A stretch of DNA of 35,815 bases from a virus: positions 1 through 35,815 of the IMG/VR virus record IMGVR_UViG_3300044632_001245; one strand, written 5' to 3'. Positions 23,327-34,534 of this stretch are shown piece by piece. The notes under the pieces are model-generated. The model made no database searches. It saw only the letters and a program-made list of their open reading frames with translations, and was not told where the DNA came from. Numbering within the stretch: position 1 is the stretch's first letter; every line of letters begins with the position of its first letter. Made by a program: the position numbers and the translations under genes.

Positions 23327-23355
23327 TTATTACTGCTGGTTCTGGGAAAAGTCAA
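23327..23355 (-). promoter_or_regulatory. Promoter-like element upstream of 344-aa fibre gene
   Basis: On the minus strand TTGACT (23355-23350), a 17-nt spacer and TAATAA (23332-23327) are followed by CCACATAACCCAACCC and a G-poor leader to ATG 23298. The -35 hexamer overlaps the stop of the collagen-like gene. This is the closest to a sigma70 consensus among the repeated elements. Confidence 0.65.
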
Positions 23356-23693
23356 AAAGTTCCGGCATCAAAGTCCAAAGTGGAGGAAGCCACGCCACTC
23401 TCCACATATACAAAGCCGGTGCCTGAAGGGGCTGGCCCTGGAGGCCCTGGATCGCCTGGTGCGCCAGCGGGTCCGGCGGGGCCTGGAGGCCCTGCGGGGC
23501 CTGGATCGCCCTGGCTTCCGGCGGGTCCCTGGGGGCCTTCTGGTCCTTCGGGTCCCTGTGGCCCTGGGGGTCCCTCCACGCCCGGAGGCCCGGAGGAAGG
23601 AGCCGCCGACCACACCGCGCCAGACCACACCCACGACCGAACGCCGTAGGTGTAGATGTCGCCAATGTTGGGGCTGGATGGAAAGTTGAGCAT
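23352..23693 (-). CDS. Collagen-like fibre protein, 113 aa
   Basis: A 113-residue protein. After a 30-residue start ([20 protein letters not shown]) come about 20 Gly-X-Y triplets ([11 protein letters not shown] and similar), ending [15 protein letters not shown] and the tail DFDAGTF. Gly-X-Y repeats form a collagen-like triple helix, used by phages as fibre shaft. It shares its DAGTF end with the adjacent fibre gene. The start is ATG 23693, just after a promoter-like element. The GC-rich repeats produce long antisense frames that are not genes. Confidence 0.8.
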
Positions 23694-23702
23694 CTTATGT
23701 TT

Positions 23703-23731
23703 TTATTACACCGGAGTCGGCGGCCAGACAA
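23703..23731 (-). promoter_or_regulatory. Promoter-like element upstream of collagen-like gene 23352-23693
   Basis: On the minus strand TTGTCT (23731-23726), a 17-nt spacer and TAATAA (23708-23703) are preceded by GGTG and followed by AAACATAAG directly before ATG 23693. The hexamer overlaps the stop codon of the preceding gene. The leader is only about 10 nt. Confidence 0.6.
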
Positions 23732-24074
23732 CTTCTTCTGGAGTGGAGGCGCTGGATGGCACATCGCGAAGGGCTTGCCGATAAGCAGCCCAAGCATTCT
23801 TTTGTTCTTGGGTGAGCGGAGCATCGGCGAGTTGAGTCCAGTCGCTTTGCGACAAGCGTTGGTTGCGATTAGCGCGTAAAGAATCCCAGGTGTGCAGTCT
23901 ATTGTTTTCGATCCAAACATTGATTTTGTTTAAGGCTTCAACTTCGTTTTCATACACTTCAGGAGCCGTGAAGAACACTTCACGGGTCTCTGCGTCTTGG
24001 AGATCAAGCTCTACGCCGCCCTCCACAGGTCTAAAACTAAAAATATACGCTTTAGGTATTGTGATCTTTTCCAT
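23706..24074 (-). CDS. Tail-fibre assembly protein (Phage_tail_APC-like), 122 aa
   Basis: A 122-residue protein. Its second half (RLSQSDWTQLADAPLTQEQK, then AWAAYRQALRDVP, then PEEVVWPPTP) matches the signature of the phage tail-assembly chaperone family: an S-D-W-T-Q motif followed by W-x-x-Y-R-Q-A-L-R-D. Such proteins help fold or attach fibres coded nearby. The N-terminal 60 residues form a beta domain with FRPVEGGVELDLQDAETREV. It lies between the DUF6065-like gene and the collagen-like fibre gene, so one of these fibres is the likely client. Confidence 0.82.
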   Translation of the reverse strand: MEKITIPKAYIFSFRPVEGGVELDLQDAETREVFFTAPEVYENEVEALNKINVWIENNRLHTWDSLRANRNQRLSQSDWTQLADAPLTQEQKNAWAAYRQALRDVPSSASTPEEVVWPPTPV

Positions 24075-24080
24075 AAATTT

Positions 24081-24851
24081 TTATTGTTCGTCGTAAAGAT
24101 TTTCGGCCATTTGCTTAAACTCTTTTCCATAGAACGGGCATTTATGACGCTTACTATAACTTAACAGAGCGTCAATTTTTTGCATCCGTTTTTCAGGAAC
24201 TTTGTCGTCCATCCGCCAAGAAGAGTAACACTGGTTCCTTGGGACAGGAATGAGTTGTGCAAGAGGCGTGTGAACTTTGATTTCTTCGTAATCTTCCGAA
24301 AACCACCAAAGCATGACATGGATGTCTTTGGAATACAGCGGATCGAGAACGCCAGGCACAACACTGAACCGAGCGTCGTCAGCATAAAAAACAGGCAGCA
24401 TAAGAAAGACTACATCTTTCGGAGCTGAAAAATGCCATGGCGTTGTAAAACGAATTATTCTCTTAGAGGCGCCTTTGGGCGGGGTCATGTGGTCCGCCAA
24501 CAATCCAGGGTCCATGAAGCTCAAGACCGTCTTATCATTGCAATCCACACGGATTTCGCTGAAATCTTCCGAGAGCTTGATCCCAAAATCGACATGAGAC
24601 TCGATGATAAACCCCGTGTTCATCAACTGTTGAATCCCCAAGCACTTCGCCGCAGTGGAGACAGGAGATAAGGGCTCGCTCTGCGACAGCCTATTGTGGT
24701 AATCATTGAAGGCTTTCTTGAGCCACTGCCTTTTTACTTTCCCCGCATCTAAAATCTGAGTTGTTAGATGCCCGTAGGGGAGCTTGTTGTGGAAAACAAG
24801 TTCCCTTTTACTCTTCCAAAAATGAGGGCAGAAGTATTTCAAAAAACTCAT
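24081..24851 (-). CDS. DUF6065-like protein in fibre cluster, 256 aa
   Basis: A 256-residue protein. The central part (about 115-215: RFTTPWHFSAPKDVVFLMLP, then FSVVPGVLDPLYSKDIHVML, then HTPLAQLIPVPRNQCY) resembles DUF6065-type proteins, which carry a P-W-x-x-x-T/S-x-x start, a central P-G-x-x-D turn and T-P-x-A/V-Q-x-I-P. Their function is not established. An aromatic, cysteine-containing start (FLKYFCPHFW) and a basic end (SYSKRHKCPFYG) flank it. The gene is visibly richer in A/T than most of the operon, suggesting recent acquisition. It is separated by 3-6 nt from its neighbours and may modify or accompany a fibre. Confidence 0.65.
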   Translation of the reverse strand: MSFLKYFCPHFWKSKRELVFHNKLPYGHLTTQILDAGKVKRQWLKKAFNDYHNRLSQSEPLSPVSTAAKCLGIQQLMNTGFIIESHVDFGIKLSEDFSEIRVDCNDKTVLSFMDPGLLADHMTPPKGASKRIIRFTTPWHFSAPKDVVFLMLPVFYADDARFSVVPGVLDPLYSKDIHVMLWWFSEDYEEIKVHTPLAQLIPVPRNQCYSSWRMDDKVPEKRMQKIDALLSYSKRHKCPFYGKEFKQMAENLYDEQ

Positions 24852-24854
24852 GCT

Positions 24855-25550
24855 TCAGATTTTGTAAACATAAGATGTGCATCGGCTTCCACCCAAAGCT
24901 CCGATGCCGCCGGTAACATTTGAAATGTTTCTAATTGGAGTCACATAGCCAGTTGTCGTCACTTTAACCTGAACAACTGAGTCAGATGTGTCGCGGCCTA
25001 AGCCTCCAAGACCGGCAGACCCAGTGGTAGTATAAAGGCCAGACCCGTCCAGAGTAACTGTTATGTTACCTCCGTCGATTTCTAACTTTGATTTTAAGAT
25101 TTGATCTGAATACATTCCGCCTAACCATCCGCTCCAACTCTGGTAATACCCAGAAAAAACAGTCTCTATTTGCCAATTCCCAGAGCCCAACTGTATTCGG
25201 TTAGAGTTTACACTTACCGCCAATCCAAACGGGTTGTAAGCCAACGACATGCTCGCGGGAAGGTTGTCCCCAGAGCCAATCCCGCAGGTAAAAGTAACAA
25301 TAGCTAATTGTGAAGTTGTATTTGCTTTCATAAAAGTAAGTAAGTCATTGATTGCAACTTTTCTAACAGCGGCAGCCGAAGTGTCAGAAACTAAAATAGC
25401 GTCATCCCCCGCCACCGCAGTCAGAGCGGTCTCTCCAGTAATGGCGCTATTCGCCAAAGAAACAGCGACTTTTCCGCTCGCGTCCCGTTGGACCAAAGTA
25501 TTTGCCGTATTAGCCGTGCTGAAATTGGGTTTAATGCTGCTTAGATTCAT
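24855..25550 (-). CDS. Tail-fibre protein, 231 aa
   Basis: A 231-residue protein starting MNLSSIKPNFSTANTANTLV. The segment TLVQRDASGKVAVSLANSAI also occurs, slightly changed (TLVQRDASGNFSAGVITG), in the fibre protein immediately upstream. A linker with GDDAILVSDTSAAAVRKVAI follows, then a C-terminal beta-sandwich-like domain from about residue 82 with many aromatic and serine/threonine strands. This is probably a separate fibre tip. The ATG overlaps the upstream stop, with GGAGGATATACAC as a good ribosome-binding site. The gene is A/T-richer than its upstream neighbour. Confidence 0.78.
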   Translation of the reverse strand: MNLSSIKPNFSTANTANTLVQRDASGKVAVSLANSAITGETALTAVAGDDAILVSDTSAAAVRKVAINDLLTFMKANTTSQLAIVTFTCGIGSGDNLPASMSLAYNPFGLAVSVNSNRIQLGSGNWQIETVFSGYYQSWSGWLGGMYSDQILKSKLEIDGGNITVTLDGSGLYTTTGSAGLGGLGRDTSDSVVQVKVTTTGYVTPIRNISNVTGGIGALGGSRCTSYVYKI

Positions 25551-27223
25551 GTGTATATCCTCCAGGTTGTTCCTTCATATCTCATGGTAAATTGAACCCC
25601 CGCGACATTGCAGACGAGGTCTTCGCCGAGACCCTCGATGTTTTGTCCGTTGCGAGCAATCGTCAGGTTGCGAGTTGCCCACTGGTTGTAGTGGTCGGCA
25701 AAAACGATTTCCGCGTAGTTAGCGGGAGACGCGGGGAGCGTGATTGTAAAAGCGGCAGCCGTGGTATTCGCCACGATCCGGTCGCCCGCGACGGCGGTGT
25801 AAGCGGATGTCCGTGTAACCCACGGACCAGGTATGCGCGAATCATTGCCTTGGCAAAAAGTGCCAGCAGTCGTTCCGAAAGAGCCTGCTTGGAGGACGCC
25901 GCCCGTGCCGGTTATGATCGGCAAGCTCGCGGTTGTGCCGATCGCGCCCGCGTTTGTGATATTGCCGTGGGTGTGATTCGTAGGGGCGGCAGAAATTGTG
26001 ATGTCCGCCGTTCCGTCAAAAGACACCCCGTTGATATTCCTAGCCGTCGTGAGCTTTGCGGCGGAGCTGGCTGTGCTGGCGTTTCCAGAGAACAAGTCGG
26101 CAGTAATCGTGCCAGCCGAGAAATTGCCGTTCGTGTCCCGCGCCACAATCGCGCTGTTGGTGTTCGCCGAGGTCGCGGTGGTGGCGGAGTTGGAAACTTT
26201 TCCAGCCGTTGAAATCGTAGCGAGCTTGGTATCGGCAATCGCGGCGGCGGCGTTGATGTCGGCGTTCACAATTACTCCAGGCGCAATCGCTGTGGGGATC
26301 GTAATCGCGGCACTACCGTCGAAACTCTGGGCGGTGCCGGTGACATCGCCACTGACATTGATCGTCTGCGCGGTGGCTAATTTGGAAGCCGTGCTGGCAT
26401 TTCCTGTCACATTGCCTGTGACGCCTCCCGTTACATTGCCGGTTAAATTACCCGTAATGACGCCTGCTGAAAAATTACCGGAAGCATCGCGCTGAACAAG
26501 CGTGCTGGCAATGTTGGTCGTGCCATACCCCACCGGGGTTCCCGCGACGCCATTGCTCACCACCACTGCGCCTGTGCCCGACGGAGCCGGACCTGCGGGG
26601 CCTTGAGCGCCCGTGTCGCCTTTCGGCCCGCGAATCTGACCCACATTGACCCAAGTAGAGCCATCCCACACATAACCGTTGCCGTCGCTTTGGGCGACAT
26701 ACAGGTCTCCTTTAACTTTGACCGCGATCGAAGTGAGGTTAGCCGGGGTTGCCACCGCGCCTTTCAGGGCGATACTCGCGCCATCGTCGCCCTTCACGCC
26801 CTGAATCCCCTGTGGCCCCTGCGGCCCAATGTTCCCCGTATCGCCTTTGGCGCCCTGGGGAATTGTAAAATCAAAAACTGCCGCTCCGCTTGTGCCGGAG
26901 TTGGACACCGAAGCGTTGGTTCCAGCGGCTCCCGTCGTCACCGTGCCTACCGCAACCGTCGCAGCCGGACCCTGCGGCCCAACAGGGCCAACATTTCCGA
27001 TGTCGCCCTTATCCCCTTTATCCCCCGTATCGCCTTTTACTCCGGCTGGGCCGACGCCGCTCTCCACCCACGCTGTCCCCGTATAAACATACTCACGCAA
27101 ATTGATCGTATCAAACCAGCGCGAGCCTTCTAACGGATACAGCGGAGCCGTGTCGGAATAAACGATCTCTGGCGGCGGCCCCGCGTTCAACTGACCAGAG
27201 ACGGGGTTGAAGAAAAACCTCAT
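25547..27223 (-). CDS. Large collagen-containing tail-fibre protein, 558 aa
   Basis: A 558-residue modular fibre. The start MRFFFNPVSGQLNAGPPPE is followed by YPLEGSRWFDTINLREYVYT, a first collagen run (GVKGDTGDKGDKGDIGNVGP), a second (KGDTGNIGPQGPQGIQGVKG), a small domain with VKGDLYVAQSDGNGYVWDGS and a third short collagen run. A serine/threonine/glycine-rich beta shaft follows with repeats such as GNASTASKLATAQTINVSGD and FDGTADITISA. The C-terminal domain (DRIVANTTAAAFTITLPASP ... RYEGTTWRIYT) is shared with the protein at 7277-7870. It overlaps both neighbours (ATGA). It probably acts as a main receptor-contact fibre. Confidence 0.82.
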   Translation of the reverse strand: MRFFFNPVSGQLNAGPPPEIVYSDTAPLYPLEGSRWFDTINLREYVYTGTAWVESGVGPAGVKGDTGDKGDKGDIGNVGPVGPQGPAATVAVGTVTTGAAGTNASVSNSGTSGAAVFDFTIPQGAKGDTGNIGPQGPQGIQGVKGDDGASIALKGAVATPANLTSIAVKVKGDLYVAQSDGNGYVWDGSTWVNVGQIRGPKGDTGAQGPAGPAPSGTGAVVVSNGVAGTPVGYGTTNIASTLVQRDASGNFSAGVITGNLTGNVTGGVTGNVTGNASTASKLATAQTINVSGDVTGTAQSFDGSAAITIPTAIAPGVIVNADINAAAAIADTKLATISTAGKVSNSATTATSANTNSAIVARDTNGNFSAGTITADLFSGNASTASSAAKLTTARNINGVSFDGTADITISAAPTNHTHGNITNAGAIGTTASLPIITGTGGVLQAGSFGTTAGTFCQGNDSRIPGPWVTRTSAYTAVAGDRIVANTTAAAFTITLPASPANYAEIVFADHYNQWATRNLTIARNGQNIEGLGEDLVCNVAGVQFTMRYEGTTWRIYT

Positions 27224-27930
27224 GTCGGGATGACGCTCACCAAGTTACCTTGGGCGTCGTAATTCATGTTGAGGGTTTTAAGCGTCGTCCCCGCCTTAGA
27301 AAAAACCACTTGGCTCATGCCAAACGAGCCGTAGGACATATTGATCGTAATGTCATTTGTAGGCTCGTATTTCCCTAGGGTCTCGACAGGGATGCGCCCC
27401 GCCACCGGATCGGGGAGCTTGGTTCCGAGAAGTGCCTGAGTTTCGTCCGACTCTGTCTTAACCTCCGTCTTAAAATCCGTCAGTGTCGTGCTCGCGGTGT
27501 CGAGTTCGGTTTTAATCTCCGAAAGGATAACTTGAGTGGCGTCTGACTCAGATTTGACCTCGGCTTTGAACGCAGTGAGCGTGGTGTTCGCATCCTCAAG
27601 CTCGGACTGAATATCAGTTAGAATGACTTGAGTTTGATCGCTCTCATCTTTGATGAGCTTCCCAAGATCAACTCCGTCATCGTAGAAAATCGAGAGGGCG
27701 TCCGTCGCTCGGTGCGTATCGCAGTCCTTATACTGCGGAAAAACAATAACCGTATTTCCGCCAGTAATCGTGATGTCCGCGTTCGGGTCAGCGGCGAAAT
27801 TGTGATAAACGAAACCAACCGTAGAGTTCACCACCAGCAACAGACGCTCGGGCAGAATCTCAATGCCGAGCAGGGTAATAGTCCTGCTCGCAACATCAAA
27901 AGTGTGGGTGCCCTTAAATTGTTGCTTCAT
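27220..27930 (-). CDS. Coiled-coil fibre-associated protein, copy 2 of a tandem pair, 236 aa
   Basis: A 236-residue protein. The N-terminal 75 residues (FDVASRTITLLGIEILPERL, LLVVNSTVGFVYHNF, TVIVFPQYKDCDTHRATDAL) form a beta domain. About three 32-residue helical repeats of the form ESDxTQxILxxIxxELxxA follow (from about residue 90), then a beta end domain (YGSFGMSQVVFSKAGTTLKT). It is a paralogue of the 241-residue protein directly upstream. The repeat design resembles a fibre stalk or connector. It has its own promoter-like element, overlaps the next gene by ATGA, and starts at ATG 27930. Confidence 0.78.
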   Translation of the reverse strand: MKQQFKGTHTFDVASRTITLLGIEILPERLLLVVNSTVGFVYHNFAADPNADITITGGNTVIVFPQYKDCDTHRATDALSIFYDDGVDLGKLIKDESDQTQVILTDIQSELEDANTTLTAFKAEVKSESDATQVILSEIKTELDTASTTLTDFKTEVKTESDETQALLGTKLPDPVAGRIPVETLGKYEPTNDITINMSYGSFGMSQVVFSKAGTTLKTLNMNYDAQGNLVSVIPT

Positions 27931-27947
27931 CTTACGCGGTTATGTTT

Positions 27948-27975
27948 TTATTACACCAGTCAAGCCAAAAAGCAA
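27948..27975 (-). promoter_or_regulatory. Promoter-like element between the two coiled-coil paralogues
   Basis: On the minus strand TTGCTT (27975-27970), a 16-nt spacer and TAATAA (27953-27948) are followed by AAACATAACCGCG and ATG 27930. The stretch TTGCYTTTTGG...GGTGTAATAAAA is nearly identical to that at 29595-29622. Confidence 0.65.
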
Positions 27976-27980
27976 GTGAA

Positions 27981-28706
27981 TTATGGCGCGGGGGTAATAG
28001 AAATAACCTTTCCAAGGGAGTCGCCGGAGGTTCCGTAGGTCAGATTCAGAGTCTTCAAAGTTACGCTACCCCTGGAAAAAATAATCTGTGATGGGCCGTA
28101 ACCGCCCGCCACATAGCTCACATCAACACCGTTGGACGGCTCAAGCATACCTAAAAATTCGATCGGCACCATGCCTTCAGTGAAGGTAGGGAGCTTGCTA
28201 CCTAGGAGAGTTTGCAACTCATCCGATTCGGCCTTTGCCTCGGTCTTAAAAGCCGCCAATGTAGCGTTCGCGTCAGCTATCTCAGTCTCGATGTCAGAAA
28301 GAAGCCCTTGAGTCTCATCAGATTCAGACTTCGCTTCGGCCTTAAAAGCCGTCAGCGTAGCGTTGGCTTCCTCCAACTCGCTATGAATATCTGAAAGAAT
28401 CCCTTGTGTTTCGTCGCTCTCGTCTTTTATCAACTGCCCGAGATCAATCCCGTCGTCATAGAATATCGAAAGCGCGTCCGAGTTCCGATGTGTCGAGCAG
28501 TCCTTATACTGCGGAAATACAATGGTCGTGTCCCCGCCAGAAACCGCCACCGTGGCCGTAGGCTCATGCTCAATGTTGTGGTAAACAAACCCGACCGTGG
28601 AATTGATAACAACCGCCAGCCGCTCGGGCGGAATTTCGATGCCCGACAACACAATCGTCCGGCTCGCGACATCTAGCGTGTAGCTGCCGGTAAACTGCTG
28701 CTTCAC
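27981..28706 (-). CDS. Coiled-coil fibre-associated protein, copy 1 of a tandem pair, 241 aa
   Basis: A 241-residue paralogue of the next gene: LDVASRTIVLSGIEIPPERL, VNSTVGFVYHNIEHEP and VFPQYKDCSTHRNSDALSIF align residue by residue. About three 32-residue helical repeats of the form ESDETQGxLSDIxxE follow. The C-terminal beta domain is also conserved. The start codon is GTG at 28706, abutting the stop of the collagen-like gene, with GGGGGAG as ribosome-binding site. The copies differ enough that duplication is not recent. They may form a heteromeric stalk. Confidence 0.78.
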   Translation of the reverse strand: MKQQFTGSYTLDVASRTIVLSGIEIPPERLAVVINSTVGFVYHNIEHEPTATVAVSGGDTTIVFPQYKDCSTHRNSDALSIFYDDGIDLGQLIKDESDETQGILSDIHSELEEANATLTAFKAEAKSESDETQGLLSDIETEIADANATLAAFKTEAKAESDELQTLLGSKLPTFTEGMVPIEFLGMLEPSNGVDVSYVAGGYGPSQIIFSRGSVTLKTLNLTYGTSGDSLGKVISITPAP

Positions 28707-29240
28707 TTAAACTCCCCCTAGGGCGATAGAAAACGCCATGACCGAACCTTTAGAAACTTCGCCCTGCGGACCCTGCGGACCTGTGTAGCCGCGTAACCCC
28801 ATAATTCCTTGTGGTCCTTCCGGGCCGCGTTCTCCAGCCGGGCCTTGCAATCCGCGAGGGCCCTCAATGCCCTGCGGTCCGGGGTCGCCGCGAAGTCCTT
28901 GAAAACCGCGAGGGCCCATTGATCCGGCGGGGCCGACTGGGCCGTCACCTCCGCGATCGCCTTTTGGCCCTTGGGGGCCAGGAGCGCCAGCGGCTCCAAC
29001 CAAACCGCGAGGGCCGGGCTCGCCCTGGGGTCCAACAATACTATCGCCTTTAAGACCCTGCAAACCGCGATCGCCTTGATCGCCCTTATCGCCTTTCGGG
29101 CCAACAGGCCCGATTGGCCCTTCCGGCCCTTGAGGGCCCGCCGCGCCCGCCGCCCCTGGGGCACCGTTCAATCCGGGCAATCCTTGAGGTCCCTGCGGGC
29201 CGGTCAAGCCGGAGCCGATAATTTCGATAATCTCAGCCAT
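28707..29240 (-). CDS. Collagen-like fibre protein, 177 aa
   Basis: A 177-residue protein that is almost entirely collagen-like. After MAEIIEIIGS come about 50 Gly-X-Y triplets (GPQGPQGLPGLNGAPG ... GYTGPQGPQGEV) with one visible break near residue 68 (GDSIVGPQ), then a 15-residue end (GSVMAFSIALGGV). It has the properties of a long triple-helical shaft or spacer without a globular tip, so it probably joins with another fibre protein. ATG 29240 was chosen; it lies one base after the upstream stop and has GGAGG upstream. A frame nine codons longer would overlap the previous gene. Confidence 0.8.
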   Translation of the reverse strand: MAEIIEIIGSGLTGPQGPQGLPGLNGAPGAAGAAGPQGPEGPIGPVGPKGDKGDQGDRGLQGLKGDSIVGPQGEPGPRGLVGAAGAPGPQGPKGDRGGDGPVGPAGSMGPRGFQGLRGDPGPQGIEGPRGLQGPAGERGPEGPQGIMGLRGYTGPQGPQGEVSKGSVMAFSIALGGV

Positions 29241-29241
29241 A

Positions 29242-29583
29242 TTAGATCGTTGCCTCCGGCACGACAACCACCGTCCCGCGAATGAGTTTCCTCACCACGC
29301 CGCCGTTGGTCAGTTCCAAATCGTAAACATAATTCCCAGCGGGCAACCCTGCCGTCTCCTGCGGTGCAAGCTCTAGGGAAACAGTCCCTCCAGCGCCGCC
29401 CAACAAAATCCGGCTGTTCTCGGTGCTGAGTTCAAAAGCCACCACGCCGCCGTAATTTTTCTTCATCTGCATCTTGGCGGTATAACCCGTGAGGTTCATA
29501 ACCTGCCCGTCCACCTTCCAGCGAAATTGCTTCTGAAAAGTGGAGCCCTGCTCAATCGTCAACGGGTATTCAACGGCTTCCAT
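29242..29583 (-). CDS. BppU-like baseplate/fibre attachment protein, 113 aa
   Basis: A 113-residue beta protein. The pattern PLTIEQGSTFQKQFRWKVDG, NLTGYTAKMQMKK, LGGAGGTVSLELAPQET and PAGNYVYDLELTNGGVVRKL matches a common small phage protein related to the N-terminal domain of BppU baseplate proteins. Such proteins connect fibres with the tail. It is first in the fibre cluster, just after terminase, with its own promoter-like element whose -35 hexamer lies in the end of the terminase gene. The start is ATG 29583, with only a very short leader. Confidence 0.78.
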   Translation of the reverse strand: MEAVEYPLTIEQGSTFQKQFRWKVDGQVMNLTGYTAKMQMKKNYGGVVAFELSTENSRILLGGAGGTVSLELAPQETAGLPAGNYVYDLELTNGGVVRKLIRGTVVVVPEATI

Positions 29584-29594
29584 AGGTTATACTT

Positions 29595-29622
29595 TTATTA
29601 CACCTACACCTCCAAAAGGCAA
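29595..29622 (-). promoter_or_regulatory. Promoter-like element at the terminase/fibre junction
   Basis: On the minus strand TTGCCT (29622-29617), a 16-nt spacer and TAATAA (29600-29595) are preceded by GGTG and followed by AAGTATAACCT and ATG 29583. The -35 lies within the last codons of the terminase gene. The element would allow fibre genes to be expressed independently of terminase. Confidence 0.65.
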
Positions 29623-31373
29623 GTTGAATTTGCCTTGACATCAAAGCGTCTCATCATTTTTCGCCACGGCCTTACCGCGCGCCCTGCACTTTCCTGCGGG
29701 GGGCGTAGCCCCATTCGCTCGCGCACGACTTCCAACAAAACAAACGCCGCGTCGGCGATGTCGGGGGATTTTCCCATCCGCGCCTTCATGTCGCTCTTCG
29801 GCTCCACGCACAACTTCATGCCCCCTGATTTTCGAGTCTCGTAGTTTCTTGCCGTCATCTCCTGGGCAAGGTCCGAGTTAATCCCGCGCAGTTGTCCGTT
29901 CTGCAAATACTCTTTCGCGCCGAACCACAGCTCTGTGACTCGATTCACATATTTGTCCCCAGCCTTCGTGGGGTCGTAGGCCGACAGCGAGCGGTCGCTC
30001 GGAGAGCCCCCGAAATGCACGCGCAAAAAATCATTCGACCCCAGCACGCGGGAAAGGGCGTCACAGAACGGCACTCCGCCACCTGTCACATCGACGCCGA
30101 GATGGTAGGGCTCCACCCGCTCGCGCCGCAAAATCTTTGCAATCTTCTCGGCCACCTGGAATGTGCGCGGGTCTGACGATGAAGCGTCGTCCTCAATAAA
30201 ATGGAATGTATCAAATGATACCTGCTCAATGCCGTCTCGGTTCAGGCCATACGACCCAATGAACAGCACGCAGCGGTCGCCACCAGAAACAAACGAAGGG
30301 TCCACGCCCGCGATCCGCGTCGTCGCGCCTTGCCAGACCGGAGGCTGGTCCGCTTTGAATTTGACGATTTCCGTTTCGGAGTAGATCGCCTTGCTCACGC
30401 CCTGCGGAGCCCAAAACCCTCGGTAGTCGCGCCAGAACATCGGAGAGTCTTCCCCTAACCTATCGACCGCTTCCTCGATTTTTTCCCATTTCTGAATCGG
30501 CCACAGGTTTTCCCTCGCGAGGTAATTCGGATTCCGCATCGCATCAAAATGCAAGCACACCCCACCAAGCTTCGTCTCCCACCTGTCGTCGTTGACCGAG
30601 ATTGCTCCCCAGCCCGCAGTCGGCTCCACGAATTTTCCAAATGGATCGTAATATGAAACGGGGTTTGCCGCCGCGCAGATGTGGAGAATGGCGTTGTTCG
30701 CGAGGTTCGACATCGCGGTGTCCAAAAGAGAATGCGATAGCTCGGACAACTCATCCGCCGCTAGAAAGACTCGCGGCGCTTTCATGCCGCGCATCTTGCC
30801 CGTCACCTCATTCGTCTTCTTGGCTTCAGCGGGGATGAGATACACGCCTGCCTGCTCCATGCGAACCTTGTCGCGCATCACATAGATCGCCGGAGTCGGC
30901 GTGTCCGTGAGCTTCGCCGGAGCGACAGGCGCAATCGCAGGCCAGTAGCGGGCCACCGCGCCCCAAACACGCTTCTTGGAATCACGAATCGAGGTCGAGG
31001 TCAGGAGCCCGAGCGTGTGATACGGCGCAGCGAGCCAATTCAAAAGAATCCACACCGCCATGAAATCTGATTTGCCCGACGAGCCGCAGCCAGCGAAGCC
31101 CACGAACTGCGAGTAGCAGCACTCATAGAGCATATCCTCGGCCCACGGGTGCCAGATAAACGGCTCCGATTTCTTGGAGAAAAACATCATCGCCGCGCGC
31201 TTGAAATTTTCCTCTCGCGGCGTCCCGTCTTTTGCTAGGGCTCGATACGCATGAAGCTCGATCGTCCAATCCGCGGTGCCCGGAGGATAAACATATCCAT
31301 AGCGAACGACGCTGTTTTTTGGGATCGGGGTTTTTCCGTCATCGACAAAAATCCCAAACTTTTTTTGAACCAT
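29604..31373 (-). CDS. terL: Terminase large subunit, 589 aa
   Basis: A 589-residue packaging motor. The ATPase has a Walker A-type GCGSSGKS at residues 95-102, a Walker B-type VFLAADE at 202-208, and a TSTS-type coupling segment at about 125. The nuclease has acidic residues at expected places: D358 (AGVDPSF), D428 (LGVDVTGG) and D538/D541 (SPDIADA). It would cut and pump phage DNA through the portal into the prohead. The gene starts the late minus-strand block and follows an A/T-rich intergenic region. Unusually, it is separated from portal by about 13 kb of fibre and lysis genes, and no small subunit is recognised next to it. Confidence 0.9.
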   Translation of the reverse strand: MVQKKFGIFVDDGKTPIPKNSVVRYGYVYPPGTADWTIELHAYRALAKDGTPREENFKRAAMMFFSKKSEPFIWHPWAEDMLYECCYSQFVGFAGCGSSGKSDFMAVWILLNWLAAPYHTLGLLTSTSIRDSKKRVWGAVARYWPAIAPVAPAKLTDTPTPAIYVMRDKVRMEQAGVYLIPAEAKKTNEVTGKMRGMKAPRVFLAADELSELSHSLLDTAMSNLANNAILHICAAANPVSYYDPFGKFVEPTAGWGAISVNDDRWETKLGGVCLHFDAMRNPNYLARENLWPIQKWEKIEEAVDRLGEDSPMFWRDYRGFWAPQGVSKAIYSETEIVKFKADQPPVWQGATTRIAGVDPSFVSGGDRCVLFIGSYGLNRDGIEQVSFDTFHFIEDDASSSDPRTFQVAEKIAKILRRERVEPYHLGVDVTGGGVPFCDALSRVLGSNDFLRVHFGGSPSDRSLSAYDPTKAGDKYVNRVTELWFGAKEYLQNGQLRGINSDLAQEMTARNYETRKSGGMKLCVEPKSDMKARMGKSPDIADAAFVLLEVVRERMGLRPPQESAGRAVRPWRKMMRRFDVKANSTCLLEV

Positions 31374-31424
31374 TCTGGGGGAAAGTAGGTCTAACTTGGG
31401 GAAGAGTCAAAATCAATTTTACAT

Positions 31425-31453
31425 AAAATAAATGCTTTCAACTGTTTGTGCAA
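31425..31453 (-). promoter_or_regulatory. Possible promoter of terminase gene
   Basis: On the minus strand TTGCAC, a 17-nt spacer and TATTTT lie roughly 50-80 nt before the terminase start. The surrounding sequence is A/T-rich and offers several alternatives, such as TTGAAA or TTGATT. The match is moderate and the assignment tentative. Confidence 0.35.
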
Positions 31454-31473
31454 TTTTCAACACGATTTCGAGC

Positions 31474-31546
31474 CCCGTAGGCTCCGCATTTTTTTGCCCC
31501 AAATTTCTTGGGGGAAAATCTAAACTCTCCTACGCAAGCCTACGGG
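31474..31546. repeat. Inverted repeat CCCGTAGGCT / AGCCTACGGG
   Basis: Perfect 10-bp arms at 31474-31483 and 31537-31546, 53 bp apart, flank the left arm of the larger inverted repeat. An attachment-site core or regulator site upstream of the recombinase is possible; no matching host sequence is available to test this. Confidence 0.6.
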
Positions 31547-31626
31547 TTTTTTCTTTCGGGTTGTATACAGTTGTGCAAGGTTATTACACCTTTTCCCCAA
31601 CTTTCCCCCAAGTTTTTGGGGCAAAA
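31492..31626. repeat. About 25-bp inverted repeat, each arm also a hairpin
   Basis: The left arm 31492-31517 and right arm 31602-31626 are reverse complements apart from the middle 3-4 bases. Each arm also contains CCCCAA...TTGGGG, which can fold on itself. Together with the boxes and the 10-bp repeat it makes this 288-bp region, which holds no gene, the most structured in the window. Confidence 0.7.
31579..31590 (-). promoter_or_regulatory. Copy of the late GGTGTAATAACC element in the divergent region
   Basis: The minus strand reads GGTGTAATAACC followed by TTGCACAACTG. No -35-like hexamer is present at the proper distance, so this copy may be a regulator-binding site or a weak promoter directed toward terminase, about 210 nt before its start. 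Confidence 0.45.
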
Positions 31627-31661
31627 GTGAGCAACAAAACGAACAACCAAAACACCGAAAA

Positions 31662-33481: not shown

Positions 33482-33605
33482 ACTCATTCGATCCTTCCCC
33501 TCCGATCCAGACCTCGAAAGGGGTCTGGCTCGTGAGAAGGACAAAACCGGAATGTCGGTATCCGCGATTATTCGCGAAGCCCTCAGAAAATTCCTCGGAC
33601 TATGA
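33456..33605 (+). CDS. Tiny ribbon-helix-helix protein, 49 aa
   Basis: A 49-residue frame from ATG 33456 to TGA 33605. The segment RSFPSDPDLERGLAREKDKT is followed by GMSVSAIIREALRKFLGL, the pattern of a minimal ribbon-helix-helix protein (strand, helix, S-x-S-A-I-I-R-E-A-L helix). It fits a chain of overlapping genes: 26-nt overlap with the previous frame and an ATGA junction with the next. It probably dimerises and binds DNA. Confidence 0.7.
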   Translation: MEKKPANPKLIRSFPSDPDLERGLAREKDKTGMSVSAIIREALRKFLGL

Positions 33606-33904
33606 CCACCATGATTATTGATTGCCGCTCGTTCACCGCGACCCCGCTCGGGGAAGGAAGAGTGCGGTTGGAAATCGCGGGAGCGGCAGCGGGCAAACGC
33701 GACCCGAACCAAACATACAGCGCCTCGGAGGTCGTGAAACGACTTTCGGAACTGATGGGAAAAGAAGTCCACCGCAACTGCCTCGTTTATTGGCGAGACA
33801 ACCTCGGACTCCCTTACAAAAAACTCGGCCCTCGAAAATTTCTCTACCAGGAAAGCGAGATTGCGCGTTGGGCCAACGGGAGGACTTCGCTTTTCAATCT
33901 ATGA
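33602..33904 (+). CDS. Excisionase-like helix-turn-helix protein, 100 aa
   Basis: A 100-residue protein. Residues 38-94 (QTYSASEVVKRLSELMGKEV, then WRDNLGLPYKKLGPRKFLYQ, then SEIARWANG) resemble the winged helix-turn-helix of excisionase/HTH_17 proteins. Those begin with an S/A-x-E helix and end with a G-x-x-x-x-Y wing and W. An excision or regulatory role near the recombinase is plausible. It is linked to both neighbours by ATGA overlaps. A role as a small terminase subunit cannot be excluded. Confidence 0.68.
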   Translation: MTTMIIDCRSFTATPLGEGRVRLEIAGAAAGKRDPNQTYSASEVVKRLSELMGKEVHRNCLVYWRDNLGLPYKKLGPRKFLYQESEIARWANGRTSLFNL

Positions 33905-34245
33905 AGCGGATCAATTCACGCGCCAAAGGCGCACGGGGCGAGCGAGAGCTTGCCGGATTTTTGACGGAACAGGGGTTCCCCGCGAAGCGTGGGGTTCAGT
34001 TCTCGCAAGGGCGCTTCGGTCTGACCGAAAGCGATGTCGTGTGCGACTCTCTGCCGCTGCATATCGAGTGCAAGCGGGTGGAGGCGGGGAACCCCTACCA
34101 GTGGCTCTCCCAAGCCCAGCGCGACGCAAAGCCAGGGAAAATTCCCGTCGTTTTCCACAAGCGCAACGACCACGAATGGATCGTGGTTCTCTCCGCCGAA
34201 AAATTTATCGAAATCCTCCGCGAGTCTTCTTTAGTGAATGAGTAA
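33901..34245 (+). CDS. PD-(D/E)XK nuclease, Holliday-junction-resolvase-like, 114 aa
   Basis: A 114-residue protein. SRAKGARGERELAGFL with E14, then ESDVV with D45 and HIECKRVE with E56-x-K58 form the PD-(D/E)XK core (E ... D ... ExK). GNPYQWLSQAQRDAKPGKIP is usual for phage resolvase-like members. It would cut branched DNA or other structured substrates during replication or packaging. The ATG overlaps the previous stop; a longer upstream frame starting at 33622 runs out of frame through the preceding gene and is rejected. Confidence 0.8.
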   Translation: MKRINSRAKGARGERELAGFLTEQGFPAKRGVQFSQGRFGLTESDVVCDSLPLHIECKRVEAGNPYQWLSQAQRDAKPGKIPVVFHKRNDHEWIVVLSAEKFIEILRESSLVNE

Positions 34246-34534
34246 TAACCGCATAACCTCGATTCTTGAAACTGCCCTGGAAGTGACCAGTGGCGACCGT
34301 CGCCGCGATTACGACCGAGCCAAGCCCAACCATGAGCGGATCGCGGCGCACTGGAACGCCTACATCCAGTCGCGCAAAGACCCGAACGCCCCGCTTTCGG
34401 CTCTGGATGTGGCCCACCTGATGATCCTCCTCAAGGTTGCTCGGGCTGTTTATACGCCGACTCGCGATTCCTATGTGGACATCGCCGGTTACGCCCGATG
34501 CTCGGCGCAAATTGCGGGCTTCGAGGAGGAATGA
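34238..34534 (+). CDS. DUF6378-like phage protein, 98 aa
   Basis: A 98-residue protein with the features of DUF6378: ILETALEVTSGDRRRDYDRA, NHERIAAHWNAYIQSR, LDVAHLMILLKVARAV and RDSYVDIAGYARCSAQIAG. The family is common in phages, mostly near replication genes, and has unknown function. A MazG/nucleotide-hydrolase-like helical fold has been considered for similar proteins, but this is uncertain. The start overlaps the nuclease gene by 8 nt. The first codons contain another copy of the GTAATAACC-n-CATAACC element (34241-34260). Confidence 0.78.
   Translation: MSNNRITSILETALEVTSGDRRRDYDRAKPNHERIAAHWNAYIQSRKDPNAPLSALDVAHLMILLKVARAVYTPTRDSYVDIAGYARCSAQIAGFEEE

Follow-up and report, generated by a model that had tools for sequence, protein, structure and literature searches.

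A probable temperate-phage attachment site with a tRNA-Asp 3' end as core between divergent terminase and integrase genes of a metagenomic virus

The 288-bp gap at positions 31374-31661 of the window (the whole stretch of 35,815 nucleotides analyzed here) is very likely the attachment site (attP) of a temperate phage, with the end of a tRNA-Asp gene as its core and short boxes in its arms; this was the full explanation found to fit the region best. The first-pass annotation had proposed an attachment site, a lysis/lysogeny switch or a replication origin, and it is the attachment site that was borne out, by the 3' end of a tRNA-Asp gene at the center of the gap, by the tRNA-Glu and tmRNA ends that take its place in relatives, and by one natural junction with host DNA. 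The region is bounded, as described in that annotation, by divergent genes, with terminase on the minus strand to the left and integrase on the plus strand to the right. The features of the locus are as follows.

29604-31373, minus strand: terminase large subunit, the left-side marker of attP
31374-31661: probable attP region (left arm, core and right arm), between terminase and integrase
31375-31384, plus strand: left-arm box P1, CTGGGGGAAA (box scan and alignment of relatives)
31395-31405, plus strand: left-arm box P2, CTTGGGGAAGA, 21 bp after P1 (box scan and alignment of relatives)
31467-31486, plus strand: attP core TTCGAGCCCCGTAGGCTCCG, the 3' end of tRNA-Asp(GUC) (genomic matches, relatives and junction), composed of the T-loop (31467-31473, the proposed 7-bp overlap), the T-stem 3' strand, the acceptor 3' strand and the discriminator
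31493-31502, minus strand: right-arm inner pair, box 1, TTGGGGCAAA
31507-31517, plus strand: right-arm inner pair, box 2, exact CTTGGGGGAAA
31537-31546, plus strand: AGCCTACGGG, the right half of the core in inverted copy
31581-31590, minus strand: 'late element' GGTGTAATAA, also kept in the attP of close relatives
31591-31600, minus strand: extra box TTGGGGAAAA, confined to the clade of the window
31602-31612, minus strand: right-arm outer pair, box 1, exact CTTGGGGGAAA
31616-31625, plus strand: right-arm outer pair, box 2, TTGGGGCAAA
31662-32873, plus strand: tyrosine recombinase (integrase), 403 aa
32935-33225, plus strand: ribbon-helix-helix (RHH) protein, found after the integrase gene in nearly all relatives
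33602-33904, plus strand: conserved 100-aa protein with weak HTH_17-like similarity, a putative excisionase (RDF)

Elsewhere in the window, a DUF6378 protein with the PHROGs label phosphofructokinase (34238-34534) was found to be highly conserved among the closer relatives within the phage group, and the structural region (23330-29267) encodes several proteins with collagen-like Gly-X-Y repeats.

The identity of the core was established by comparison with bacterial genomes and with the cores of related phages. TTCGAGCCCCGTAGGCTCCG spans the T-loop through the discriminator base of tRNA-Asp(GUC), and its first 19 bases had four exact matches in 388 Verrucomicrobiota genomes, all of them 3' ends of tRNA-Asp(GUC). 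Cores with one mismatch in genomes G004 and G009 were also from tRNA-Asp, and the G004 version is the core of relatives L003, L008 and L126. The window itself contains only this tRNA fragment, with no complete tRNA or Rfam match. When the relatives were aligned, the central segment was found to consist of TTCGANNCCCGT followed by 7-10 variable bases, and in the relatives as in the window the core corresponds to a host-type tRNA or tmRNA 3' end. The cores TTCGAATCCCGTGCGCGCTGCC and ..AGGCGCTGCC are ends of tRNA-Glu(CTC); that of L013 and L016 (..ATGCGCTGCC) appears tRNA-Glu-like, by similarity only, and that of L127 and L130 looks like another tRNA-Glu end, a near match to it lying in a tRNA-Glu at locus L188. 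For L017 and L020, five genomic loci matching the first 19 bases of the core were scanned: four proved to be tmRNA ends, and the remaining one, in a short contig, received no call. The integrases of L013 (5773-6963) and L017 (6001-7203) are 91% identical, and their attP cores fit different genes (tRNA-Glu-like and tmRNA, respectively). A tRNA-Asp end likewise lies between integrase and terminase in distant phages, with identities of 38-41% for the terminase and about 28-32% for the integrase.

These comparisons bear on the proposal that the palindromes serve solely as transcription terminators or promoters, the tRNA end being a disused fossil of an old integration. A terminator-like hairpin was called by a scanner at 31470-31484 and a late element is located in the gap, as this proposal would have it. 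By contrast, a scan of the region for sigma-70-like promoters found none, the cores match present-day tRNA and tmRNA genes exactly, and the targets differ between phages with 91% identical integrases, the latter two findings pointing to ongoing use; we consider a fossil very improbable. The hairpin at 31470-31484 was rejected as a terminator, as it is the tRNA end itself.

A comparison with host att junctions, as suggested in the first-pass annotation, yielded one natural junction of tRNA-Asp, right arm and integrase, albeit in a decayed relative, and the second junction was not found. A profile search with the integrase gave one close bacterial match, on contig C65 of genome G442 (locus L169). 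Read from the host side, L169 has a host gene and a complete tRNA-Asp that continues unbroken into a phage right arm and the start of an integrase gene. The right arm carries both box pairs, TTTTGTCC..GGGACAAA, the CGGGTTTTT motif, GTTATTACACC, TTTTGTCCCAACTTTCGGGACAAAA and the TTATTACACC element, and the integrase is 58-60% identical to that of the window over residues 14-113. To the left of the core, L169 resembles an unoccupied tRNA-Asp locus and not the phage left arm, whereas to the right of the core the reverse was observed; host DNA stands in place of the left arm and terminase. Integration at 31467-31486 would be expected to give this layout. The copy shows decay in the form of an in-frame TAG and of integrase homology that ends around residue 113, not far from the end of the contig.

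For G442, neither a second junction nor a terminase relative was found, and it gave the only close match when 213 and 388 genomes were searched with a profile of the integrase N-terminal domain. Because a close terminase relative was missing from all 213 genomes of the order of G442, we infer the hosts, which are likely Verrucomicrobiota-like. In a collection of named phage genomes, the integrase had no match and the terminase weak matches only. Distant integrases in host genomes were found to adjoin the downstream end of tRNA-Asp, -His, -Glu, -Arg or -Thr, and at other loci a tmRNA lies upstream. At one of these distant loci (L107, tRNA-His), a 29-bp tRNA end is repeated 8.2 kb away in the manner of a classic attL/attR pair. 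The 8.2-kb element so delimited (L107, 9684-17950) has the complete tRNA-His on one side and the 29-bp end copy on the other, and it encloses a relative of the integrase together with a weak terminase-like match; it is possibly a phage satellite or remnant.

The repeats of the region were examined next to those expected by chance. The 25-bp inverted repeat reported earlier (31493-31517 and 31602-31626) exists and its arms do fold, each being a palindromic box pair, although the two arms are only 76% complementary; the 10-bp inverted repeat (31474-31483 and 31537-31546) is 100% complementary, as claimed. Five boxes had been counted, yet exact CTTGGGGGAAA occurs only twice (31507-31517, plus strand; 31602-31612, minus strand), and five weaker copies with one or two mismatches to TTGGGGGAAA were found at 31375, 31396, 31493 (minus), 31591 (minus) and 31616. 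Matches with at most two mismatches numbered 51 in the window, and 11 of these (some being shifted overlaps of a single box) lie inside the 288 bp, compared to approximately 0.35 expected from whole-window shuffles. The contrast with a local shuffle was milder (12 near-copies of GGGGAAAA, the shuffles giving 11 at most), and chance alone produces longer imperfect inverted repeats at other places in the window. On their own, the repeats are only moderately above chance locally and no more than suggestive.

The attP architecture is considered real because some 40 related viral loci share it. The first-pass annotation had advised looking for the boxes in related phages and had named a lack of conservation there as speaking against its proposal; when this was checked, the layout was found to be kept, closely in the nearer loci and in outline only in the more distant ones. 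Box offsets are nearly constant, with the left boxes at approximately -90 and -69 from the core, the inner inverted pair directly after the core and the outer inverted pair approximately 115 bp further on. The P1 position (approximately -90) in relatives holds, for example, GGGACAAG/GGTGCAAA. A replication origin with iterons, for which the short boxes repeated in an A+T-rich gap might speak, is scarcely credible here: the adjacent genes are terminase and integrase with no replication or initiator gene beside them, the tDNA end at the center of the gap changes with the target, and the right arm is kept beside a host tRNA gene. The origin reading of the first-pass annotation was thus left without support.

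The letters of the boxes shift in concert by clade, from GGGGGAAA in the window to GGGACAAA, TGGACAAA, GGTGCAAA (L126) and GGTACAAA (L127), and this variation was used to ask which protein reads them. Box type was found to track integrase residues 1-75 and not the catalytic part. The boxes of L013 and L020 are the same, and their integrases are 92% identical in the first 75 residues compared to 66% in the rest; the window and L006 differ in their boxes and have 56% N-terminal identity. The short repeated boxes flank the core on both sides, as arm-type sites do, and exact copies are almost absent outside attP within the loci. An automatic inner/outer box test (p = 0.005, with some palindromes mis-assigned and phylogeny uncontrolled) lent mild support. 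The association of boxes and N-terminal domain could reflect physical linkage, the two being adjacent. It may instead be proposed that the region is an attP in which the GGGGGAAA boxes are repressor operators, bound by the RHH or HTH-like protein and controlling divergent promoters of the integrase gene and the terminase operon. The inverted arrangement of the box pairs resembles that of repressor operators, the genes for RHH and HTH-like proteins are conserved beside the integrase gene, and the gap sits between divergent genes. However, the RHH beta strand RVSYVE is identical across all box types, including the change from GGGGGAAA to GGTGCAAA, and because this DNA-contacting strand is invariant while the boxes change, the RHH protein is disfavored as their reader. 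The boxes are also rare elsewhere in the loci, where a repressor regulon might need them, and they lie to either side of the tDNA core, as arm sites do. From these sequence comparisons, the boxes appear to fit integrase arm-type sites better than RHH operators and the integrase is probably the protein that reads them, an operator function being unlikely. The lysis/lysogeny switch suggested earlier was not supported as such, and any regulatory role of the region is secondary and putative.

The integrase gene that adjoins attP encodes a tyrosine recombinase, the alignment of which retains R252, K281, R336 and Y368 (here and below, positions assigned by eye). No Pfam model matched its N-terminal domain. 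The integrase family has Asn in place of the customary HxxR histidine (N333), and again where a His or Trp normally stands further on (N359); across 21 relatives with identities as low as 27%, N333 never varies and N359 hardly does.

The single late-element copy noted earlier in the gap was confirmed at 31581-31590 (minus strand). GGTGTAATAA occurs six times in the window, compared to 0.54 expected, and all copies are on the minus strand (5644, 11796, 23703, 27948, 29595 and 31581). Several copies are followed after approximately 5 bases by ATAACC, and five of the six lie within approximately 40 bases of a minus-strand gene start codon, the element recurring just upstream of such genes; it is possibly a late-promoter or leader element. 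At the inverted core copy (31537-31546), the TACGGGTTTT motif is kept in nearly all close relatives, and this segment is possibly an extra core-type site.

Taken together, we propose that the integrase encoded by the neighboring gene would bind a core-type sequence around the T-loop of the tRNA-Asp end (31467-31486) and, most likely with its N-terminal domain, the GGGGGAAA boxes to the left and right of it, forming an intasome. The left arm would contribute two direct boxes, and the right arm an additional single box besides its two inverted pairs. The strands would probably be exchanged within the 7-bp T-loop, making the body of the host tRNA-Asp continuous with the core and right arm of the phage; the outcome would be a restored tRNA gene with the integrase gene directly downstream and terminase at the opposite end of the prophage. 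The tRNA gene would be left unbroken by the insertion because attP carries the tRNA-Asp gene end. We infer the T-loop crossover from where attP/attB identity starts in the sequences compared; telling a T-loop crossover from one at the T/acceptor junction is difficult (PMC4383910). A more specific scheme is tentative: the integrase may at the core read mainly TTCGANNCCCGT, the part that most of these tDNA ends have in common, while its Pfam-less N-terminal domain reads the fast-changing, clade-specific inverted box pairs, such that 91% identical integrases could switch between tRNA-Glu and tmRNA (tRNA-Asp in other clades) by swapping the tDNA end of attP, with 31537-31546 serving as a further integrase site for the control of directionality.

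The site resembles the lambda-type tDNA attP, and attL of KplE1 with argW is a close architectural parallel (PMC2951348). In both KplE1 and the window, a tRNA 3' end forms the core and has short repeated arm boxes next to it; the integrase gene follows directly downstream, pointing away from the tRNA, with sites in its promoter region. By analogy with KplE1, autoregulation of the integrase gene from overlapping sites is likely, because any promoter of this gene would necessarily coincide in part with the boxes and core. Unlike the KplE1/lambda type, the window has right-arm boxes in two inverted pairs, a terminase gene on the far side, an inverted copy of the core right half 53 bp away and an integrase N-terminal domain without a Pfam match. 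Islander-type islands in tRNA and tmRNA genes, T-loop/T-stem (J) class (PMC4383910), provide a second comparison. As in these, the attP of the window holds a 3' tDNA fragment from the T-loop on and integration would restore the tDNA; by contrast, the target varies among close relatives of the phage (tRNA-Asp, tRNA-Glu and tmRNA), and a complete island of this phage was not found.

Attachment by a tRNA-Asp end is ordinary phage biology, here unusually well documented by comparison. For a phage group known from metagenome contigs alone (up to about 72 kb), the analysis maps the attachment site, predicts the gene it targets and points to a likely host phylum, and the natural series of attP sites with altered boxes and tDNA targets opens integrase specificity to dissection.
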